This document shows, in pieces, positions 33,742-41,908 of a DNA stretch of 43,046 nt (positions are counted from its first letter, which is position 1; each line of letters begins with the position of its first letter). The notes beneath the pieces were generated by a model. That model saw only the letters and a list, made by a program, of their open reading frames with translations. It searched no databases and was not told where the DNA came from. The translations under genes and the position numbers were made by a program. The stretch lies in the IMG/VR virus record IMGVR_UViG_3300035150_000080, positions 1 to 43,046 of that record; one strand, written 5' to 3'. This DNA comes from a virus.

Positions 33742-33960
33742 TCAAGGATTAATTACAGTTTTTCCTTCCACGATATTAATTTTCCCATCTATAATATCCC
33801 TCAATCGATTCAGGCAAAACAATATTTTCTTACTCCTAGCATTGTGGAAAGGATAAGAATCACCTTTCCCGTATTCAAGAACCCAATCAAGTAGTTCAAT
33901 GTCTTCTTTATTTTGGAACTTCACTTGGACTATTATTAGTTCACTGTCTTCGTCGTACAT
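33742..33960 (-). CDS. Small acidic protein of unknown function
   Basis: The 72-residue product starts inside the end of the upstream Ala-rich gene (20-base overlap), using the GGAGAAGGAGG made by that gene's Glu/Gly codons. It has an N-terminal strand (SELIIVQVKF), a helical centre and NARSKKILFCLNRLRDII near 41-58. No family recognised. Confidence 0.6.
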   Translation of the reverse strand: MYDEDSELIIVQVKFQNKEDIELLDWVLEYGKGDSYPFHNARSKKILFCLNRLRDIIDGKINIVEGKTVINP

Positions 33961-34600
33961 TTTTTCCTCCTTCTCCTTCTCCTTCTAATTCTAACTTTGG
34001 ACAGCTTAAATTGTTTCTTACAATTTCAGCATGAACAGCGGCAGCGGTTGATGCGGCAGCGGCAGATGTGGCAGCGGCAGAGGCATAATTAGCTGCATCA
34101 ATTTCAGCGGCGTAAGTATAAGCGGTTGATGCGGCAGCGGCAGATGTGGCAGCGGCAGAGGCATAATTAGCTGCATCAATTTCAGCGGCGTAAGCTGCTG
34201 CATAGGCCGCATAAGCTGCTGCATTAGCAGCGGCAGAAGCCGCTGCATGAGCAGCATAAGCAGAAGCCGAATAAGCAGCTGCTGCAGCATTTATAACGTT
34301 TTCCTTTTCTTTTTCTTTTCCATCTAGCCACTTTTCCGCCGCTTCAATTGCCTTTCGCGGTCTTTCCTCTTCTGCTGGTATATATTTCAAAACCTGTCTG
34401 GCAATTTCTGTAGCTATTTTTACTATTGTTTTGTGCCGATCTTCATCAAGACCGATCCTTGCTGCCAGCCATAAGAGCCAGTCCCCACGAGGACACTTGC
34501 TCCATGCTTCTTCTATGGAGCATATTCCTTCTTCGTCCAGCCATCGAATTGAAGAACTACAAGCATGCAATTCGATTAATCTAGATCGAAATGTTTTCAT
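33941..34600 (-). CDS. Ala-rich immunity-like protein, copy 1
   Basis: Residues 1-100 of this 219-residue protein (FRSRLIELHACSSSIRWLDEE, then CPRGDWLLWLAARIGLDEDR, then EIARQVLKYIPAEEERPRKA) match what I know as the putative immunity protein family, followed as usual by a long Ala-rich helix-forming part (about 103-195) and a conserved end (AEIVRNNLSCPKLELEGEGEGG). A 26-residue unit (EIDAANYASAAATSAAAAST...) is present twice. It overlaps its paralogue upstream by four bases. The family's activity is unknown; the name rests on annotation history. Confidence 0.65.
   Translation of the reverse strand: MKTFRSRLIELHACSSSIRWLDEEGICSIEEAWSKCPRGDWLLWLAARIGLDEDRHKTIVKIATEIARQVLKYIPAEEERPRKAIEAAEKWLDGKEKEKENVINAAAAAYSASAYAAHAAASAAANAAAYAAYAAAYAAEIDAANYASAAATSAAAASTAYTYAAEIDAANYASAAATSAAAASTAAAVHAEIVRNNLSCPKLELEGEGEGGKNVRRRQ
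34043..34194 (-). repeat. 78-bp tandem repeat in the Ala-rich gene
   Basis: Two units of 78 bases start at 34043 and 34121 and are nearly identical, each encoding 26 residues of the Ala-rich region. Shorter GCAGCGGC repeats lie inside. Such repeats can change copy number during replication. Confidence 0.85.
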
Positions 34601-35289
34601 TTTTTTCCTCCTTCTCCTTCTCCTTCTAATTCTAACTTTGGACAGCTTAAGTTACTTCTTACAATTTCTGCATCAGCAGCATCAGCCGCATCAGCAGCCG
34701 CATGAGCACGAGCGGCAGCGGCATCAGAAGCATAAGCAGCAGCAGCTGCTGCATGATAAGAAGCATAAACGGCATCAGAAGAAGCAGCTGCTGCATGATA
34801 AGAAGCATAAACGGCATCAGAAGCTGCGGCAGCAGCCGCATAAGCAGCTGCATCAGCATAAGCAGCGGCATAAGCAGCATCAGAAGCAGAAGAAGAAGCA
34901 TAGACAGAAGCTGCAGCTGCAGCTGCCGCATCAGCAGCATGAGCATGAGCGGTAGCTGCCGCATAAGCGGCATCGGAAGCAGTTATAACATTTTCTATTT
35001 TTTCTTTTCCATCTAGCCACCTTTCTGTCTTTTCAATTGCTATTCTTGGTCTTTCCTCTTCTGCTGGTATATATTTCAAAACCTGTCTGGCAATTTCTGT
35101 AGCTATTTTTACTATTTTTTTATGTCGGTCTTCATTACAACCGACTCTTGCTGCCAGCCATAAGAGCCAGTCCCCACGAGAACACTTGTCCCACGCCTCT
35201 TCTATTGTGCTTATTCCTTCTTCGTCCAACCATCGAATTGCTGACCGACAGGCCCGCAATTCGATTAATCTAGATCGAAATGTTTTCAT
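34597..35289 (-). CDS. Ala-rich immunity-like protein, copy 2
   Basis: This 230-residue paralogue begins at the ATG at 35289 behind AGGAGG. Its first 100 residues are largely identical to copy 1 (FRSRLIELRACRSAIRWLDEEG, RGDWLLWLAARVGCNEDR) and its tail is the same (SCPKLELEGEGEGGK), but the Ala-rich middle (about 108-215) differs, with its own repeat SDAVYASYHAAAA. Gene duplication followed by repeat divergence explains this. The GAAGGAGAAGGAGG codons at its end serve as binding site of the next gene. Confidence 0.65.
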   Translation of the reverse strand: MKTFRSRLIELRACRSAIRWLDEEGISTIEEAWDKCSRGDWLLWLAARVGCNEDRHKKIVKIATEIARQVLKYIPAEEERPRIAIEKTERWLDGKEKIENVITASDAAYAAATAHAHAADAAAAAAASVYASSSASDAAYAAAYADAAAYAAAAAASDAVYASYHAAAASSDAVYASYHAAAAAAYASDAAAARAHAAADAADAADAEIVRSNLSCPKLELEGEGEGGKK

Positions 35290-35300
35290 TTTTTTTCCTC

Positions 35301-35432
35301 CTAAAGAAATATTCCAAAAAATATAAATATTAATAATGTTGCAAATGTCCATGCTAATATCAACACTGCGATATTAACTACTTGCGATTCGCTCACAAAT
35401 AACATTTTCAGTATGTTTATTATTTTTTTCAT
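35301..35432 (-). CDS. 43-residue single-pass membrane peptide
   Basis: The frame begins behind TAGGTAGG (five bases before the ATG) and ends 12 bases before copy 2 of the Ala-rich gene starts. The peptide has a basic start (MKKIINILKM) and a hydrophobic helix (about 19-43, NIAVLILAWTFATLLIFIFF), reaching the C-terminus. Small membrane peptides beside immunity-like genes can be holins, toxins or exclusion factors; none is proven here. Confidence 0.55.
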   Translation of the reverse strand: MKKIINILKMLFVSESQVVNIAVLILAWTFATLLIFIFFGIFL

Positions 35433-37055: not shown

Positions 37056-37158
37056 GTATTGATTTATGACTGCCATCAGGAACAGGAACAGAAAAAGATA
37101 AATCTAAACGGAGGTAAAAAAAATGTTCCTGTTCCTGATGGCAGTCATAAATCAATAC
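37056..37158. repeat. 35-bp perfect inverted repeat with a 33-base loop
   Basis: Arms 37056-37090 and 37124-37158 are exact reverse complements (GATTTATGACTGCCATCAGG lies within the left arm). The loop contains, on the plus strand, AACGGAGGTAAAAAAAATG: the same ribosome binding sequence found before several minus-strand genes, but reversed. An ATG at 37123 would start a 14-codon frame. The stop codon of the 92-residue gene (37152) lies in the right arm. The remainder of the 189-bp gap to 36963 shows only the binding site of the next gene. Confidence 0.9.
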
Positions 37159-37430
37159 ACTTCGTAATAGTCGATCCTACCTGGTGTTATAGACATTTCA
37201 TTATGTACGGCTATCATCATATCAGTCCCAGGTATCATTGCGTACGCAATATCAGGCAATAATACATTCTTACCATCAACTTTCAGCATAGTAATGTTCC
37301 AGAAACATTTACCTCTATCACAAGTATGGAATAGAAATTCAATGTTATCCATCTTATTTTCAATTTCTATGCATTTTGTGAAAGATAGGACATCCTTTAT
37401 TTTTTTTAATTGCTCGTAGTTCATACCCAT
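37152..37430 (-). CDS. Small protein of unknown function
   Basis: The 92-residue product starts behind TAGGAGA. It has an N-terminal helix (YEQLKKIKDVLSFTKCIEI) and then a beta-rich part (IEFLFHTC, CFWNITMLKVDGKNVLL, MMIAVHNEMSIT). No family recognised. It lies directly downstream of the Cys-rich double-glycine peptide gene, 11 bases apart, so a functional link (immunity, carrier or modification partner) is conceivable but only positional. Its stop lies inside a 35-bp inverted repeat. Confidence 0.6.
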   Translation of the reverse strand: MGMNYEQLKKIKDVLSFTKCIEIENKMDNIEFLFHTCDRGKCFWNITMLKVDGKNVLLPDIAYAMIPGTDMMIAVHNEMSITPGRIDYYEVY

Positions 37431-37441
37431 TTTTTTATCTC

Positions 37442-37636
37442 CTACCTACAAGGTACGACGGTATACGTCGCAGGTATACAAGTCGTATCAATGCTACAGT
37501 AACTGTCTACGCACCTTGTTTCGCACTCAGACAGACCGCGTAGCGTCCTACCTCCGTGGACTTTTTCCTGTTCGTTTCTACCTATAGCATTAGTATTGAA
37601 GTCTACTATAGTGGTTTTTGTAAATTTTAATTTCAT
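37442..37636 (-). CDS. Double-glycine leader peptide, RiPP-like precursor with Cys-rich core
   Basis: The 64-residue product starts behind TTAAGGAGA. The first 29 residues look like a peptide leader: MKLKFTKTTIVDFN, a polar helix, then KVHGG (Gly28-Gly29), the site cut by C39-peptidase transporters. The 35-residue core holds Cys at 38, 42, 47, 53 and 63 and about nine Ser/Thr, ending in VPCR. The leader style (KLK..KTTI..F...GG) is that of the TIGR04149-like natural product precursors known mainly from Bacteroidota. No lanthionine synthetase, radical SAM enzyme or transporter is encoded in the phage, so maturation would need host enzymes. A disulfide-bonded secreted peptide is the alternative. 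Confidence 0.55.
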   Translation of the reverse strand: MKLKFTKTTIVDFNTNAIGRNEQEKVHGGRTLRGLSECETRCVDSYCSIDTTCIPATYTVVPCR

Positions 37637-37666
37637 TTTTTTTTCTCCTTAATTTTCTTTTTCAAT

Positions 37667-38071
37667 TTAGGGTAGATAAAGTCTGCCTTGATTAGGCAAG
37701 TCAGACAACTCATTTAACAATCTCCTCTTCTCATTAATGCACTCATTTTTTGCCCCAATGTACTTTACAACAAAATATCCGTATCCATTTGATTTGTGAT
37801 ACAGCGATGAAAATCTTTTATAGGAAAGTATACTGTACAATACACCACTCCTATTCTGTATTAAAAAATAGGAACTTTCCCACTTGCGAGGTTCAAAAAA
37901 AGCATTTGTCGTTTCGTTCATAATAAATTTTGACGCCACCAGGTAATTGGCGTCAAAAATTTTCCTGTTATAATTAACGTTTATACCGTCAAACTCAACT
38001 TTGACTTCAACGTTGAACGTTGGCGGAATGAATCCATTTGGTATCAATTTTAATTTCTTTAGATTGTTCAC
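37667..38071 (-). CDS. Unknown protein coupled to the ART-like gene
   Basis: The GTG at 38071 overlaps the stop of the upstream gene (GTGA) and has AGGAGG before it, a better start than the TTG at 38095. The product has 134 residues with a beta-rich first half (TFNVEVKVEFDGINVNYNRKIF) and a helical end (NECINEKRRLLNELSDL). No family recognised. Tight coupling to the ADP-ribosyltransferase-like gene suggests a partner, for example a second domain or an inhibitor. Confidence 0.6.
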   Translation of the reverse strand: MNNLKKLKLIPNGFIPPTFNVEVKVEFDGINVNYNRKIFDANYLVASKFIMNETTNAFFEPRKWESSYFLIQNRSGVLYSILSYKRFSSLYHKSNGYGYFVVKYIGAKNECINEKRRLLNELSDLPNQGRLYLP

Positions 38072-38361
38072 TTTACCTCCTCTATGAATCCCCAATCACA
38101 GCAGTATACACTGCTACCATGTAATTCATTAATCACTTCTGTTTTGGACATGGGAATTACCCTGTATATTACAGGTTTCCCTCCAAATCTGCTAACGGAA
38201 CGTCCGGCGTATATTTTCGCCGATCGTATATCTGTTGTAAAGAAAACCTTATTCAGGTTCTTCTTTCTACCAGACTCCTGTATTACCCCAGTTTCGGTTG
38301 GTGGCAGGAGCATATAGCTATATCTAGAAATAACAGCACTTGACGTTCCGTGGTAATACAT
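38068..38361 (-). CDS. Small ADP-ribosyltransferase-like protein
   Basis: From ATG 38361 (CGGAG upstream) the protein has 97 residues. MYYHGTSS at the start, KVFFTTDIRSAKIYAGRS (38-55) and GGKPVIYRVIP (60-70) match the ADP-ribosyltransferase fold in its small Arr-like form: His4 in YHGT, then a strand-helix with Tyr51, then the v-Y-x-V strand. Such proteins move ADP-ribose from NAD to proteins, RNA or antibiotics. Phages use ARTs to modify host RNA polymerase or ribosomes. A third catalytic residue cannot be assigned with confidence. Confidence 0.5.
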   Translation of the reverse strand: MYYHGTSSAVISRYSYMLLPPTETGVIQESGRKKNLNKVFFTTDIRSAKIYAGRSVSRFGGKPVIYRVIPMSKTEVINELHGSSVYCCDWGFIEEVK

Positions 38362-38381
38362 TTTTGTCTCCGTTAAGTATA

Positions 38382-38416
38382 GTAGTTGAAGGCCCCACCA
38401 TGGGGCCAACAACTAC
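38382..38416. other. GC-rich intergenic hairpin
   Basis: GTAGTTG (38382-38388) pairs with CAACTAC (38410-38416) and GGCCCCA (38391-38397) with TGGGGCC (38401-38407) around a CCA loop. It fills the gap between two minus-strand genes. No T-run follows, so it is more likely an RNA-processing or stabilising stem than a strong terminator. Confidence 0.65.
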
Positions 38417-38422
38417 AACTTC

Positions 38423-38800
38423 TCAACTTCCTAACTTCTCTTTCCTGATTGATACTCTCAAGACATTTTCGATTATATCTTGCAGAACATAAACTTCAGC
38501 CCCGCAACAACAGTGAAATCGAACAAATCTAATTCCAGACTCTGTTTCGCCTCTATGTGACTCTTCCGCAATGAACGGGAGAGTCACATCATTCCTGTCA
38601 TTCCAGACAGTGAATCCCTCTGGTGTGTAAATAAAGCAGTCATGATTCACTTCAAAATTAATTTGGAATGAACTGTTTTTTAAATCGGCGCTATAATTGA
38701 CAATCGGAATAATTCCAATCGATTTTAGCGGCTCGTAGATTTTTTCAACAAAATCAAAGCCTGATTTGATTTTGTTTTCCGTTGTTTCTGTTTTACTCAT
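38423..38800 (-). CDS. Unknown protein in a repeated-leader cassette
   Basis: The ATG at 38800 has ACGGAGG in front, matching the leader used by two other cassettes; an in-frame ATG at 38833 belongs to the conserved leader itself. The 125-residue product has a helical N-terminus (SGFDFVEKIYEPLKSIG), a beta-rich middle (FQINFEVNHDCFIYTPEGFTVW) and an HCCCGAE group near residues 97-103 that could bind metal. No family recognised. Confidence 0.6.
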   Translation of the reverse strand: MSKTETTENKIKSGFDFVEKIYEPLKSIGIIPIVNYSADLKNSSFQINFEVNHDCFIYTPEGFTVWNDRNDVTLPFIAEESHRGETESGIRFVRFHCCCGAEVYVLQDIIENVLRVSIRKEKLGS

Positions 38801-38868
38801 ATTTTTTACCTCCGTTTTTTTTAATTTACTCATTGCAGCCTACTGGCTGATAACCAATAGGCTGAATC
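38801..38868 (-). promoter_or_regulatory. Cassette leader 1: hairpin plus conserved binding site
   Basis: Hairpin 38836-38864 (CAGCCTA/TAGGCTG with one mismatch, then TGG/CCA) is followed on the minus strand by AATGAGTAA, an A-run and CGGAGG. The same layout stands before two other genes (40949-41022 and 41404-41477). Here the mini-frame that begins at ATGAGT runs into the gene instead of stopping. Confidence 0.65.
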
Positions 38869-38878
38869 AATAAATTAA

Positions 38879-39448
38879 CTAATGTAAAATGTAATCTACG
38901 ATTACACCTTGTCCAACAAATCCAAGATTTATCATTTTTTTCGTTTCTTCCAGCAAGTTTTCCTTTCTTACTGTCTGACCCCATATCCAATTGCCTCCTC
39001 TTTGTTCCTGACAACCATGAAAATCAAAGGCAAATGATTGCTGTCCGCAGATTTGATCATCATCATCCCATCCTAACACAAATACCGTGTCAGAGGGAAG
39101 ATTATTGAAACTTTCCCTGGTGATTGAATTGTTATCAGGGAAAAACCCATAATTTTTCCCTGACCTACCATATGTATATCCATCAGGGCATACTTCAGAA
39201 AGGATAATGTCTAAGTATGCAATTTTCTGTGTTTCAGCGTACTTTTCCCTTGCCAGCAATTCAATTTCATTATAGATGTCTATAATCGAATTTAATCCGA
39301 TTTTGATATCCAGCATGTCTACGATGAATGAAAGTTGATCAAAGAGGGTATTCAAAACAACCGGCCCTCCTTTTGCCAATTTAATAACTTTTGCCTTTGC
39401 CTTTTCCTGTACTTCACTGCTAACAATAATTTCACCACATCTAATCAT
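38879..39448 (-). CDS. Unknown 189-residue protein
   Basis: CGGAGG precedes the ATG, and a promoter copy lies about 57 bases further upstream. The N-terminal half is helical (VQEKAKAKVIKLAKGGPVV, LNSIIDIYNEIELLAREKY); the second half has Gly/Asp/Trp-rich stretches (VFVLGWDDDDQICGQQSFAF, GGNWIWGQ). That second half recalls small surface-exposed beta domains, but I cannot name the family. It is the first gene of its transcription unit. Confidence 0.65.
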   Translation of the reverse strand: MIRCGEIIVSSEVQEKAKAKVIKLAKGGPVVLNTLFDQLSFIVDMLDIKIGLNSIIDIYNEIELLAREKYAETQKIAYLDIILSEVCPDGYTYGRSGKNYGFFPDNNSITRESFNNLPSDTVFVLGWDDDDQICGQQSFAFDFHGCQEQRGGNWIWGQTVRKENLLEETKKMINLGFVGQGVIVDYILH

Positions 39449-39504
39449 AATTTCCTCCGTTTTTTTTGTTAACCCCTGACTCCCGGCCAGGGTGTTACAC
39501 TATT

Positions 39505-39533
39505 AATATAGTATAATTTTTTCTATTTGTCAA
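39505..39533 (-). promoter_or_regulatory. Strong promoter, copy 1 of a duplicated 56-bp element
   Basis: On the minus strand TTGACA (39528-39533), 17 bases and TATATT (39505-39510). The region 39507-39562 is identical to 41882-41937. It drives the gene starting at 39448. Confidence 0.8.
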
Positions 39534-39562
39534 CTTTTTTTTTATTTTTTGCATAAAAAATA
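39507..39562 (-). repeat. 56-bp direct repeat carrying a promoter, copy 1
   Basis: All 56 bases recur at 41882-41937 without change. Besides the -35 and most of the spacer, the repeat contains the A/T-rich tract upstream (an UP-element-like region). Duplication of a promoter cassette is the simplest explanation. Confidence 0.9.
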
Positions 39563-39575
39563 ATTTTTCTTGTAT

Positions 39576-39605
39576 AAAAAACCGGTACCGGGTTGAAGCA
39601 CCCGG
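39576..39605 (-). terminator. Intrinsic terminator on the minus strand
   Basis: CCGGGT (39588-39593) and ACCCGG (39600-39605) form a stem with a six-base loop; on the minus strand a run of six T residues follows within six bases (39576-39581). It ends the transcript coming from the sigma-like gene and isolates promoter copy 1. Confidence 0.65.
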
Positions 39606-39701
39606 CTTTATGGGGATAGGAACCCACGCGCCCCCGGCCAGGCGCAACGGTGAGGTGACTGAACCCGTCACGGAGGTGAAACGAAAAAGAATGCGTTCTA
39701 A
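39576..39701 (-). ncRNA. GC-rich hairpin-dense element, possible structured RNA
   Basis: In an otherwise AT-rich island these 126 bases are GC-rich. They contain three stems: GTGAC/GTCAC (39655-39659, 39667-39671), GCGCC/GGCGC (39628-39632, 39641-39645) and the terminator stem. Strand is assigned because the terminator faces the minus direction. A 60-residue frame (39523-39705) crosses it, but its composition and its run through the promoter make coding unlikely. No known RNA family is recognised. It could be an independent small RNA or a 3' UTR. Confidence 0.35.
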
Positions 39702-40118
39702 TCATTTTTTAATAAGCAGCAATTCTGCTTTTTTTATAATTTTTGATTGGTATTTATATTTACCAGTCATGGTCATAATTACATATTTTCCTATACCATA
39801 TATATATAGGAATTTCTCGTTTTCAGGAAGATAATCATACTTGCCATGCAGTTCCCATGCCCTCACAAGTATTTCTTGTTTTACATCGCTAAAATCATAC
39901 TCTAATGGAAGAGAAATTTTCATCTCTCTAAAATATCTATATATTAAAATATTTGTGACTCTATTTATTATATTTATAGGCAATGCGTTTTCAGAAAAAC
40001 ACATCTCTTTATCTTTTACGCAAATATATCCTCTTTTCTTTGCCCTCCATCTTGTTGTGCGTGAAGATTTTTTTAATGCTTCATTCCAGCCTTCGCCTCC
40101 GGCTTTTATTTTTATCAT
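39702..40118 (-). CDS. Sigma-region-2-like small protein
   Basis: The 138-residue product starts behind AGAGGT. Residues about 80-130 (DFSDVKQEILVRAWELHGKYDYLPE, then FLYIYGIGKYVIMTM) resemble the sigma-70 region 2 pattern D-x-x-Q-E-x-x-x-x-x-W, which contacts core RNA polymerase. No region 4 is present. It could be a truncated sigma, an anti-host factor or a phage transcription modulator. The N-terminus is basic (WNEALKKSSRTTRWRAKKRG). Similarity is short, so confidence is limited. Confidence 0.45.
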   Translation of the reverse strand: MIKIKAGGEGWNEALKKSSRTTRWRAKKRGYICVKDKEMCFSENALPINIINRVTNILIYRYFREMKISLPLEYDFSDVKQEILVRAWELHGKYDYLPENEKFLYIYGIGKYVIMTMTGKYKYQSKIIKKAELLLIKK

Positions 40119-40149
40119 ATTAACCTCTATTATTTCAAAACATCCTGAT

Positions 40150-40194
40150 GTCTTGACGTGTAGTCCTAACTATCAATATATTACACGTCAAGAC
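40150..40194. promoter_or_regulatory. 13-bp inverted repeat, possible operator
   Basis: GTCTTGACGTGTA (40150-40162) and its exact reverse complement (40182-40194) enclose 19 bases. Each arm contains a TTGACG, and CCTGA/TCAGG extend the symmetry outside. It lies in the 108-bp gap upstream of the sigma-like gene. No clear -10 is present, so an operator or an mRNA stem are the options. Confidence 0.55.
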
Positions 40195-40226
40195 TTAATG
40201 CCTTCAGGTAGGCAATAGTTCAATTG

Positions 40227-40730
40227 CTATATTTCCTCTTCTAATTCTTTTATTATGTCGAGGCAGTGCATCGATCCATCTATTACACCTTGATAATATA
40301 TAACCTTCTTCCTATCTCCTTTTTTGCTTGCCTTGTCCATATTGTCAGCTTTGGACGAGGCAAACTCTTTTATTTTTTCCTTAAGGATTTCTATTTCTAT
40401 CTGTTTGTTTTCCCAACTTTCCAACAGGCAGTGGAAACATTCGTGTTTTAATAGTAGATCAATACCAGATCTGAAATCCAGTATTGATTCTTCCATACCG
40501 TCGGCACTATAAGGTGCTATCGATATCCATATTTTCTTAATCAGCCAGGCCCTTCTTCCGTCGTAGAATGCTGGATAAACTTCATTTCGATAATAACCAT
40601 ACTTGTCATTATCAGTGTGAAAAATATATATGCGATCACATCCAACAAGCAACGTGTTACCACATTCAACTTCGTAACTACCGTTAGGATAGTCGTTTTT
40701 TGTTATTGTTTTTCTTTCTTTAAAATACAT
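40227..40730 (-). CDS. Unknown protein with C-terminal coiled coil
   Basis: AAGGAGA stands before the ATG. The 167-residue product has a beta-rich first part (YEVECGNTLLVGCDRIYIFHT, AFYDGRRAWLIKKIWISIAPY), then a helical, Lys/Glu-rich C-terminal half (about 105-165) with HECFHCLLESWENKQ near 94-108. The His/Cys group could bind metal. No family recognised. Confidence 0.65.
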   Translation of the reverse strand: MYFKERKTITKNDYPNGSYEVECGNTLLVGCDRIYIFHTDNDKYGYYRNEVYPAFYDGRRAWLIKKIWISIAPYSADGMEESILDFRSGIDLLLKHECFHCLLESWENKQIEIEILKEKIKEFASSKADNMDKASKKGDRKKVIYYQGVIDGSMHCLDIIKELEEEI

Positions 40731-40740
40731 ATTATTCTCC

Positions 40741-40953
40741 TTATTCTCCTCTCAATCGGTCTTGCTCAGCTTTATATTTTTCGTCGTCCAGGCGGTTATA
40801 ATACCGCCTTTCTTTTTCTATATATTCATTCGCAGATTCGACGGAATCAAATTCTATGAGCCTTCCGTGAGGTACGCTTTCCCATTCACAACCATACAAA
40901 TATACTACTCCATTAATACCATCTTCATACACATAACACGTGTTACTTATCAT
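40741..40953 (-). CDS. Small protein in a repeated-leader cassette
   Basis: The 70-residue product begins behind CGGAGGTTAAC, the conserved cassette leader, whose 54 bases including the start codon are identical to those of the gene at 41178-41408. It has a beta-rich first part (YVYEDGINGVVYLYGCEW) and a charged helix to the end. Function unknown. It ends 10 bases before the next gene starts. Confidence 0.6.
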   Translation of the reverse strand: MISNTCYVYEDGINGVVYLYGCEWESVPHGRLIEFDSVESANEYIEKERRYYNRLDDEKYKAEQDRLRGE

Positions 40954-41022
40954 GTTAACCTCCGTTTTTTTTAATTTAAATTACTCATTCCAGCCTATCG
41001 GCCGTCAATCCGGTAGGTTGGA
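40949..41022 (-). promoter_or_regulatory. Cassette leader 2: 54-bp repeat with hairpin
   Basis: Bases 40949-41002 are identical to 41404-41457. The hairpin 40989-41022 (TCCAGCCTATCGG against CCGGTAGGTTGGA) pairs along 13 bp with two G-T wobbles. On the minus strand it is followed by a five-codon mini-frame (ATGAGTAATTTAAATTAA), an A-run and CGGAGG. The stop codon of the upstream double-glycine peptide lies in the stem. Confidence 0.75.
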
Positions 41023-41153
41023 ACTGTAGTCGTAACGATCGGTCCTGTTCCTCCAAAAAGTTTGTCTAAATCCTTGTCTTCATAATCTTCTAAGTTAGAA
41101 ATTGTCATCTTGTTCAAAGGTTTCAATTTCAATTTCAATTTTTTATTTTTCAT
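40995..41153 (-). CDS. Double-glycine leader peptide, RiPP-like precursor without Cys
   Basis: This 52-residue peptide starts behind AAAGGAGG. The leader (KLKLKLKPLNKMTISNLED followed by a polar helix and DKLFGG, Gly34-Gly35) is a textbook double-glycine leader. The KMTISNLED block is like that of the TIGR04149-type precursors. The 17-residue core has five Thr (GTGPIVTTT run), no Cys and a basic end. Thr-rich cores can be dehydrated or cross-linked by RiPP enzymes, none of which is seen here. Together with 37442-37636 this makes two leader peptides of the same design with unrelated cores, in one phage island. Confidence 0.6.
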   Translation of the reverse strand: MKNKKLKLKLKPLNKMTISNLEDYEDKDLDKLFGGTGPIVTTTVPTYRIDGR

Positions 41154-41177
41154 GTTTCCTCCTTTTTCCTTTTATTG

Positions 41178-41408
41178 TCACATTTCATCTTCATCTTCAT
41201 TCTGTTTCGCGACTTCATATTCGTACCAGTTTGTCCAATTAGGCATATTGGACAAACTAATGTATGCGTTGCAGTCGAATCCACTACCGGTATAATAAAC
41301 GTCTCCGGTAATTTGGCCGACGATTCCATAACCATTTTCCAACCTTTCTACCTTCAACCTTTCTACCTTCAACCATTTTTGCCTTTCGTATTTGGTATTA
41401 ATAATCAT
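41178..41408 (-). CDS. Small acidic protein in a repeated-leader cassette
   Basis: The 76-residue product starts behind the conserved CGGAGGTTAAC leader. A 15-bp tandem repeat in the DNA gives WLKVERLKVERLENG near residues 12-26. The remainder is beta-rich with aromatic residues (GQITGDVYYTGSGF, NWTNWYEYEV) and ends acidic (NEDEDEM). Function unknown. It lies directly upstream of the Thr-rich double-glycine peptide gene. Confidence 0.6.
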   Translation of the reverse strand: MIINTKYERQKWLKVERLKVERLENGYGIVGQITGDVYYTGSGFDCNAYISLSNMPNWTNWYEYEVAKQNEDEDEM

Positions 41409-41477
41409 GTTAACCTCCGTTTTTTTTAATTTAAATTACTCATTCCAGCCTATCGGCTGTTAAGCCGATAGGCTGGA
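41404..41477 (-). promoter_or_regulatory. Cassette leader 3: 54-bp repeat with 15-bp perfect hairpin
   Basis: Arms 41444-41458 and 41463-41477 (TCCAGCCTATCGGCT) are exact reverse complements around four bases. Then come the five-codon mini-frame, the A-run and CGGAGG, as in leader 2. There is no T-run, so it is not an intrinsic terminator. Confidence 0.75.
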
Positions 41478-41490
41478 TCAATAACTTAAC

Positions 41491-41832
41491 TTAACTTAAC
41501 GGCATTTGTGATTTAGCTACATCGATCAACCTAAAGAAATCCTTTTTAATGCCATTGCTATCACAGATAGCAATTATGAAATTCACATAATCAAATCCAA
41601 TTTCGTTACCTTTAAATACAATATCTCTAAATTCAATAACAGTTTCAGCGTCATTTATGGATGACGCCATTTTCTTTAAGTTTTCCCTTGCTGATTCAAA
41701 TTTAGCGATGTTTTTGATACCGCTATCTTTGAATTTAACTTCAAGTGCGCGCTCTAACAATTCATCAAATCCAACCTTCAGCTTTGACGCCCAATTGATT
41801 TGTTTTTGACTACCCTTTGTTATTGTTATCAT
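41491..41832 (-). CDS. Unknown helical protein, first gene of the accessory island
   Basis: The 113-residue product starts behind TCGGAGG and a perfect promoter. It is mainly helical, with SQKQINWASKLKVGFDELLERAL (about 8-30), close in style to a segment found in phage proteins that begin with QKQINWA and a region near the C-terminus (IAICDSNGIKKDFFRLID). As the first gene behind the strongest promoter, it is probably expressed immediately after entry. Function unknown. Confidence 0.65.
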   Translation of the reverse strand: MITITKGSQKQINWASKLKVGFDELLERALEVKFKDSGIKNIAKFESARENLKKMASSINDAETVIEFRDIVFKGNEIGFDYVNFIIAICDSNGIKKDFFRLIDVAKSQMPLS

Positions 41833-41879: not shown

Positions 41880-41908
41880 ATTATAGTATAATTTTTTCTA
41901 TTTGTCAA
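41880..41908 (-). promoter_or_regulatory. Perfect consensus promoter, copy 2 of the 56-bp element
   Basis: TTGACA (41903-41908), 17 bases, TATAAT (41880-41885) on the minus strand. It starts the accessory island. The -10 is perfect here, whereas copy 1 has TATATT. Confidence 0.85.

Follow-up and report, generated by a model that had tools for sequence, protein, structure and literature searches.

Prochlorosins of marine cyanobacteria are class II lanthipeptides with LanM enzymes and Nif11-type leaders, and their dispersed precursors act in trans. The peptide sublancin is accompanied by its own modification, export and immunity genes. Sublancin 168 is a bacteriocin of the SPbeta prophage (PMC6391423). 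Class I lanthipeptide leaders of the design LxLxKx5L ending in a double glycine (GG), with C39 proteases in their clusters, have been described for Bacteroidetes (PMC7268733). Here we analysed the IMG/VR record IMGVR_UViG_3300035150_000080 over its full length of 43,046 bases (the window). This tailed-phage record has 35.8% G+C and encodes a terminase, portal, major capsid, tape measure, helicase and replication initiator. Two of its small genes, P1 and P2, encode peptides with GG leaders. We propose, and give an even chance, that both are precursors of the class I lanthipeptide type without enzymes of their own, which would be matured and exported by the host machinery in trans.

P1 (37442..37636, minus strand) encodes 64 amino acids, comprising the leader MKLKFTKTTIVDFNTNAIGRNEQEKVHGG (residues 1-29, 37550..37636) and the core RTLRGLSECETRCVDSYCSIDTTCIPATYTVVPCR (residues 30-64, 37445..37549). 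P2 (40995..41153, minus strand) encodes 52 amino acids, with the leader MKNKKLKLKLKPLNKMTISNLEDYEDKDLDKLFGG (residues 1-35, 41049..41153), which holds LNKMTISNL...DLDKLFGG, and the core TGPIVTTTVPTYRIDGR (residues 36-52, 40998..41048). Both open reading frames (ORFs) are real genes since they have Shine-Dalgarno (SD) sites (AAGGAGAAAAAAAA-ATG for P1 and AAAAAGGAGGAAAC-ATG for P2), phage-like codon use and tight packing between co-directional neighbours. The codon log-odds were positive in the P1 and P2 frames only (+0.14 and +0.22, versus -0.18 to -0.84 in the other frames), and each gene occupies a gap with its neighbours 11-41 bp away. Cys, Ser and Thr abound in the P1 core, with five Cys in 35 residues versus 1.2% Cys in 20 main phage proteins, and the 17-residue P2 core is Thr-rich and contains no Cys. 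The coordinates and core compositions given in the original prediction from the letters alone were thus correct on the minus strand. Its spacing of 16-18 residues from TI to GG agreed with the 17 counted in P1, and the 15 counted in P2 fell just below. The last codons of P2 double as an arm of a hairpin (repeat D5), which recurs in a stronger form after the 113-amino-acid gene at 41491-41832. Copies of this hairpin, followed by an AT-rich spacer and an SD site, stand ahead of several small genes (38838-38872, 40989-41023 and 41443-41477); the end of P2 is translated from one of them, and another folds to -29.5 kcal/mol. As had been predicted, the window ORFs examined, several of which had no family match at all, yielded neither a modification enzyme nor an exporter, and they included no LanB or LanC near P1 or P2.

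The leaders had originally been described as resembling those of ribosomally synthesized and post-translationally modified peptides (RiPPs). This similarity of the GG leaders was retained and could be narrowed to the class I lanthipeptide design LxLxKx5L...GG (NF038153), in its Aminicenantia form, which appears to be the nearest leader kind. The check named first, model TIGR04149, failed, as P2 scored 10.1 bits against a cut-off of 25 and P1 gave no match. With NF038153, P2 reached 7 bits against a cut-off of 22 and P1 again gave no match; known-type relatives from Aminicenantia reached 24-40 bits, several of them above the cut-off. In P1, the stretch LKFTKTTIVDF reads LxFxKx5F, so that Phe replaces Leu at two motif positions, and in P2 the stretch LNKMTISNL reads LxKx5L, with the first Leu displaced by one residue; the canonical L1a DNA pattern was found in the P2 leader. 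GG stands at the end of both leaders. The Cys and Ser/Thr residues for thioether rings are present in the P1 core, and because P2 has no Cys we do not class it as a lanthipeptide.

C39 peptidases favour hydrophobic residues at positions -4, -7, -12 and -15 from the cut site. All four are hydrophobic in the P2 leader, which together with the Cys-free core and the presence of a C39 exporter in one Aminicenantia genome (G002, described below) would suit a plain double-glycine peptide of the bacteriocin or pheromone type, cut and exported by a C39 transporter and left unmodified. We consider this highly improbable: P1 carries Gln at -7 and Thr at -15 and its core is Cys-rich, and KxTIx[DN][LF] is a feature of class I lanthipeptide leaders (PMC7268733).

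Because no curated model was reached, a leader pattern at the DNA level was written from the features common to P1 and P2 (M-K ... K-x-T-I-x-[DN]-[LF] ... K-[hydrophobic]-x-G-G). It occurred twice in the window and not at all in 100 shuffled versions, although it had been chosen after both peptides were seen. When 257 Gb of genome sequence from bacteria and archaea was scanned, the same pattern matched only 29 stretches, 13 of which encode short GG-leader peptides: six in Candidatus Aminicenantes, five in Bacteroidota and one each in Delongbacteria and Krumholzibacteriota. Since several of these peptides exceed the NF038153 cut-off, the pattern picks out class I lanthipeptide precursors. Single-sequence protein searches of Aminicenantia miss this leader family, as the true relatives of P1 ranked only at E 0.3-0.4, below unrelated long frames; for P2 the best true relative had E 0.0135. 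A profile of 42 such leaders, with P1 and P2 excluded, ranked the two peptides first and second of 408 window ORFs (E 4.6e-5 and 6.3e-5, the next at 0.55), and a profile of five Aminicenantia peptides likewise placed them on top (P1 1.8e-7, P2 4e-7, the next at 0.68); these E-values are flattered, because the training peptides had been collected by means of the pattern derived from the two peptides or a looser version of it, and L185 by means of P2 itself. Among 2,783 ORFs from 34 viral contigs, mostly preselected for carrying the leader DNA pattern, the top scores were 12.4 and 11.9 bits versus 17.6-18.0 and 24.4-25.5 bits, respectively, for P1/P2.

In view of this origin of the training peptides, a control was run in which the pattern residues of P1 and P2 were kept fixed and the remaining leader was shuffled 1000 times. 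None of the 1000 shuffled leaders reached the score of P1 with any of the three Aminicenantia-peptide profiles, and 14 did so with the general profile. The match of P1 is carried by the part outside the pattern (FNTNAIGRNEQEKVHGG versus LNSALDRDEQQKVMGG), and its leader aligns to Aminicenantia leaders of the form TIQDLxxxLDRDEQxKVxGG. The assignment of the P1 leader is therefore well supported. The shuffling result also bears on the reading that P1 and P2 are small, basic phage proteins, each with an N-terminal half that is leader-like by accident, the GG being part of an ordinary fold. Such a coincidence would agree with the failure to reach a curated model, with a pattern defined after the fact and with the lack of relatives showing conservation of GG. 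We regard it as improbable, given two such ORFs within 43 kb as compared with none in the shuffled sequences, a P1 match that extends to residues beyond the pattern, and viral ORFs that score far lower. Moreover, two scans of IMG/VR with leader patterns returned 28 and 5 stretches with not one real leader peptide among them, so that they revealed no further phage encoding a peptide of this sort.

The pattern led to Aminicenantia genomes of 5.7-10.4 Mb (G001-G003) that hold many dispersed precursors of the class I lanthipeptide type, away from LanB. A looser form of the leader pattern matched 28 times in G001, 11 times in G002 and 12 times in G003, and never in the reversed control; a few matches were duplicates or did not encode peptides, and most read as precursors. 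LanB genes are present in these genomes on contigs other than those of the precursors. In G002 one locus (L161) encodes LanB-N, LanB-C, LanC, an ATP-binding cassette (ABC) exporter with a C39 peptidase, and an HlyD protein; no recognised precursor lies beside it. The LanB-N, LanB-C and LanC genes occupy L161:7108-11616, and the C39 domain is encoded within L161:3555-5744. As the precursors lie apart from LanB and one genome combines LanB, LanC and a C39 exporter, the Aminicenantia precursors appear to be matured in trans. A phage precursor would therefore fit into such a system without enzymes of its own, and the earlier suggestion that the phage peptides use host machinery has become plausible to this extent.

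The host itself is probably a poorly known Aminicenantia bacterium, a view that we hold with somewhat better than even confidence and with which the promoter matches agree without proving it. P1 and P2 lie in separate minus-strand groups of small ORFs with mostly unassigned functions. The P1 group (37152..39448) comprises ORFs of 189, 136, about 101 (phrog_2110) and about 135 amino acids, P1, and an ORF of 92 amino acids, and is preceded by TTGACA-17-TATATT (39505..39533, minus strand; 11 of 12 consensus positions). The P2 group (39702..41832) comprises ORFs of 113 and 76 amino acids, P2, and ORFs of 70, 167 and 138 amino acids, and is preceded by TTGACA-17-TATAAT (41880..41908, minus strand; 12 of 12 positions), to which similar sites exist in many Aminicenantia genomes. 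Both near-perfect sigma-70 promoters belong to a repeated 65-bp element. In a comparison of the right 20 kb of the phage with 142 Aminicenantia genomes, these two promoter repeats gave the best matches, with up to 94% identity over 47 bp (E 3.8e-10), the value found between the promoter of the P1 group and a site in G001. In 14 control genomes the best matches were mostly elsewhere, with one Clostridium matching the promoter repeat at E 3e-5. The pattern TTGACA-N14-TACTATANT was found 40 times versus 0 for its reversed form in eight Aminicenantia genomes, which had been chosen partly for such matches, 9 versus 1 times in three Clostridium genomes and 2 versus 2 times in four Bacteroidota. Furthermore, the SD sites of P1 and P2 resemble those of the Aminicenantia precursors. 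A Bacteroidota host, suggested by the leader type, was set aside as unlikely on account of the strong SD sites and TTGACA-17-TATAAT promoters of the phage and also in view of the promoter counts. Candidate prophages or shared genes in Aminicenantia amounted to one remotely similar terminase (25% identity) and short DNA matches, promoter-like or of other kinds. A further close copy of the promoter repeat lies upstream of a gene for a radical SAM protein in the Aminicenantia genome G118 (L162:3331-4410).

The two genes, the similarity of leaders and promoters, and the dispersed precursors with a complete enzyme and exporter locus in candidate hosts are direct observations. From them we infer a course of infection that includes the host and the timing of expression, the recognition, modification and export of the peptides, and an effect on the host or its neighbours. 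The strong promoters of host type would express P1 and P2, probably early in infection. Host LanB and LanC (dehydratase and cyclase), which would act in trans on dispersed precursors, would recognise the leaders of P1 and P2, and a host C39-peptidase ABC exporter would also recognise the leaders, cut after GG and secrete the cores. The Ser, Thr and Cys residues of P1, with its Cys-rich core, suggest a ringed (lanthionine) product. P2 could undergo dehydration at most, or just cleavage and export; its Cys-free core suggests a decoy, a signal mimic, or a peptide that is dehydrated only or not modified at all. The peptides may act as products, decoys or signal mimics.

If they were decoys, the leaders would occupy host LanB/LanC or the C39 exporter and thereby block the host's own peptides, and the cores would need no function. 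Two unrelated cores behind similar leaders, and a P2 core that is Cys-free and has its end read from a hairpin repeat as if unselected, speak for this. Because lanthipeptides with anti-phage activity exist in Streptomyces (PMC12360287), a decoy could serve in counter-defence. The P1 core, rich in Cys, Ser and Thr as in a genuine product, would be dispensable for a decoy, and an anti-phage action of Aminicenantia lanthipeptides is not known; we judge decoys unlikely, though still worth considering.

A signalling role was also considered, in view of the genes that accompany the closest Aminicenantia peptides. The five Aminicenantia peptides nearest to the P1 leader (L051, L052, L084, L089 and L185) have short cores in which GTT stands close to the end and Cys is the last residue or nearly so, for example SATTNPGTTDVPIYC. 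All five lie directly upstream of a Reg_prop-type protein (loci L156, L157, L158, L159 and L185; L156 is the same place as L052). Four of these neighbours were scanned for domains: three have Reg_prop, Y_Y_Y and an AraC-type helix-turn-helix, and one, interrupted in the assembly, has Reg_prop alone. The neighbour of L185 was recognised as Reg_prop-type by similarity. Of the remaining loci with precursors of this type, L169 alone lies near a comparable regulator. This gene neighbourhood suggests a candidate peptide-sensor pair, in which a short GG peptide would be read by a membrane regulator. The leader TI..L...LDRDEQ.KV.GG of this subfamily was recovered in P1 at the significance given above, and in P2 only moderately. 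P1 and/or P2 might therefore imitate these peptides and trigger or block the sensor. Such mimicry would be consistent with the P1 leader being nearest to exactly the Reg_prop-paired subfamily, and by eye TTTVPTY in P2 resembles GTTxVPIY. The short core ending GTT..P.[FY]C was found in neither peptide: the P1 core is longer and different, and P2 ends in TTTVPTYR without the final Cys. Kinship of the P2 core with GTTxVP[IV][FY]C cores, plausible by eye, failed shuffling. No Reg_prop-Y_Y_Y-AraC gene lies beside P1 or P2, whose neighbours are without such a domain, and the signalling role of the Aminicenantia peptides is itself deduced from their neighbourhood. We consider mimicry by P1 or P2 very improbable. 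A fuller version of the proposed host-dependent maturation, which we hold to be rather doubtful, would have the infected cell make and export phage-designed peptides through the host in-trans pathway, P1 being ringed and P2 perhaps imitating a host peptide that a Reg_prop-AraC membrane sensor reads, and these would act on neighbours or on host signalling.

Several results weigh against maturation of P1 and P2 by the host, in addition to the flattered E-values. No model of the library fits P1 or P2 above its cut-off. In the fixed-residue control, 30, 36 and 44 of 1000 shuffled leaders reached the score of P2 with the three Aminicenantia-peptide profiles and 4 of 1000 with the general profile, and a profile of L084 and L089 alone gave P2 merely E 0.021, so that support for the P2 leader is moderate. 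P2 has no Cys. Neither core has significant similarity to known cores, with 106 of 300 shuffles as good for P1, for which no kinship was thus retained, and 75-524 of 1000 and 24 of 300 for P2. No phage relatives were found in which the conservation of GG could be compared: searches of IMG/VR with P1, P2, the terminase, the phrog_2110 protein and the tape measure returned one unrelated contig only, searches of phage records with the terminase, P1, P2, helicase, portal and major capsid yielded either nothing or remote similarities, and the major capsid had no match in 84,980 genomes. The promoter pattern had no match in IMG/VR. Finally, neither a shared gene nor a prophage or spacer was found that would link the phage to Aminicenantia.

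Other features of the window were noted. Directly after the P1 gene group lies a perfect inverted repeat with 35-nt arms and 33 nt between them (37056-37158), which forms a very stable hairpin. Within this group, the gene at 38068-38373 encodes a small YHGTS protein of phrog_2110 (E 2e-33), to which a stretch within an 850-amino-acid protein of an unrelated phage contig is 53% identical (L002:10001-10261). At 33941-35352 two tandem paralogous proteins of 219 and 251 amino acids are encoded, whose N-terminal halves are conserved and whose C-terminal halves are repeated and rich in Ala; they share 297 bp at 89% identity and have a weak Imm5-like match.

In the open-access literature, we found no paper on a phage with only such precursors and none naming both Aminicenantes and lanthipeptides. 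Phages with whole peptide-toxin clusters are already known, as are phage-borne precursor peptides and maturation in trans; what is new is the combination of the latter two in a phage. If the proposal is true, a precursor-only phage relying on host enzymes would represent a cheaper strategy, missed by searches based on enzyme genes. Infected cells would gain a new secreted compound if the peptides are products, and decoys would amount to counter-defence against lanthipeptides. Aminicenantia emerge as lanthipeptide-rich bacteria, with dozens of dispersed precursors and a candidate peptide-sensor pairing.

Among described systems, P1 and P2 share with class I lanthipeptide precursors (NF038153/NF038158, PMC7268733) the basic K/L-rich start, K-x-T-I-x-x-[LF], a hydrophobic residue at -4 and the GG end, and P1 also the Ser/Thr/Cys core; they differ in scoring below the cut-off, in the two Phe for Leu in P1, in the missing Cys of P2 and in a phage without the enzymes. 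The K-rich start and GG end are also found in the radical SAM-modified RiPPs of TIGR04149, from which the peptides are set apart by the P2 score below the cut-off, by the lack of any match for P1 and by the lack of a radical SAM gene in the phage. Like arbitrium (AimP) and other phage signal peptides (PMC12360287), they would be short phage-encoded peptides that are processed and possibly extracellular, whereas their precursor design is different and no receptor gene was recognised in this phage. A secreted, modified peptide encoded in a phage genome, as proposed for P1 and P2, recalls sublancin 168 of the SPbeta prophage (PMC6391423) and other phage-borne bacteriocins. In contrast to sublancin 168, which has its own gene set, the phage described here carries bare precursors. 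Prochlorosins of marine cyanobacteria are class II peptides with LanM and Nif11-type leaders, whereas P1 and P2 are phage-borne; with prochlorosins and the Aminicenantia precursors they share the arrangement of precursor genes far from the enzyme genes, in which one machinery serves many cores.

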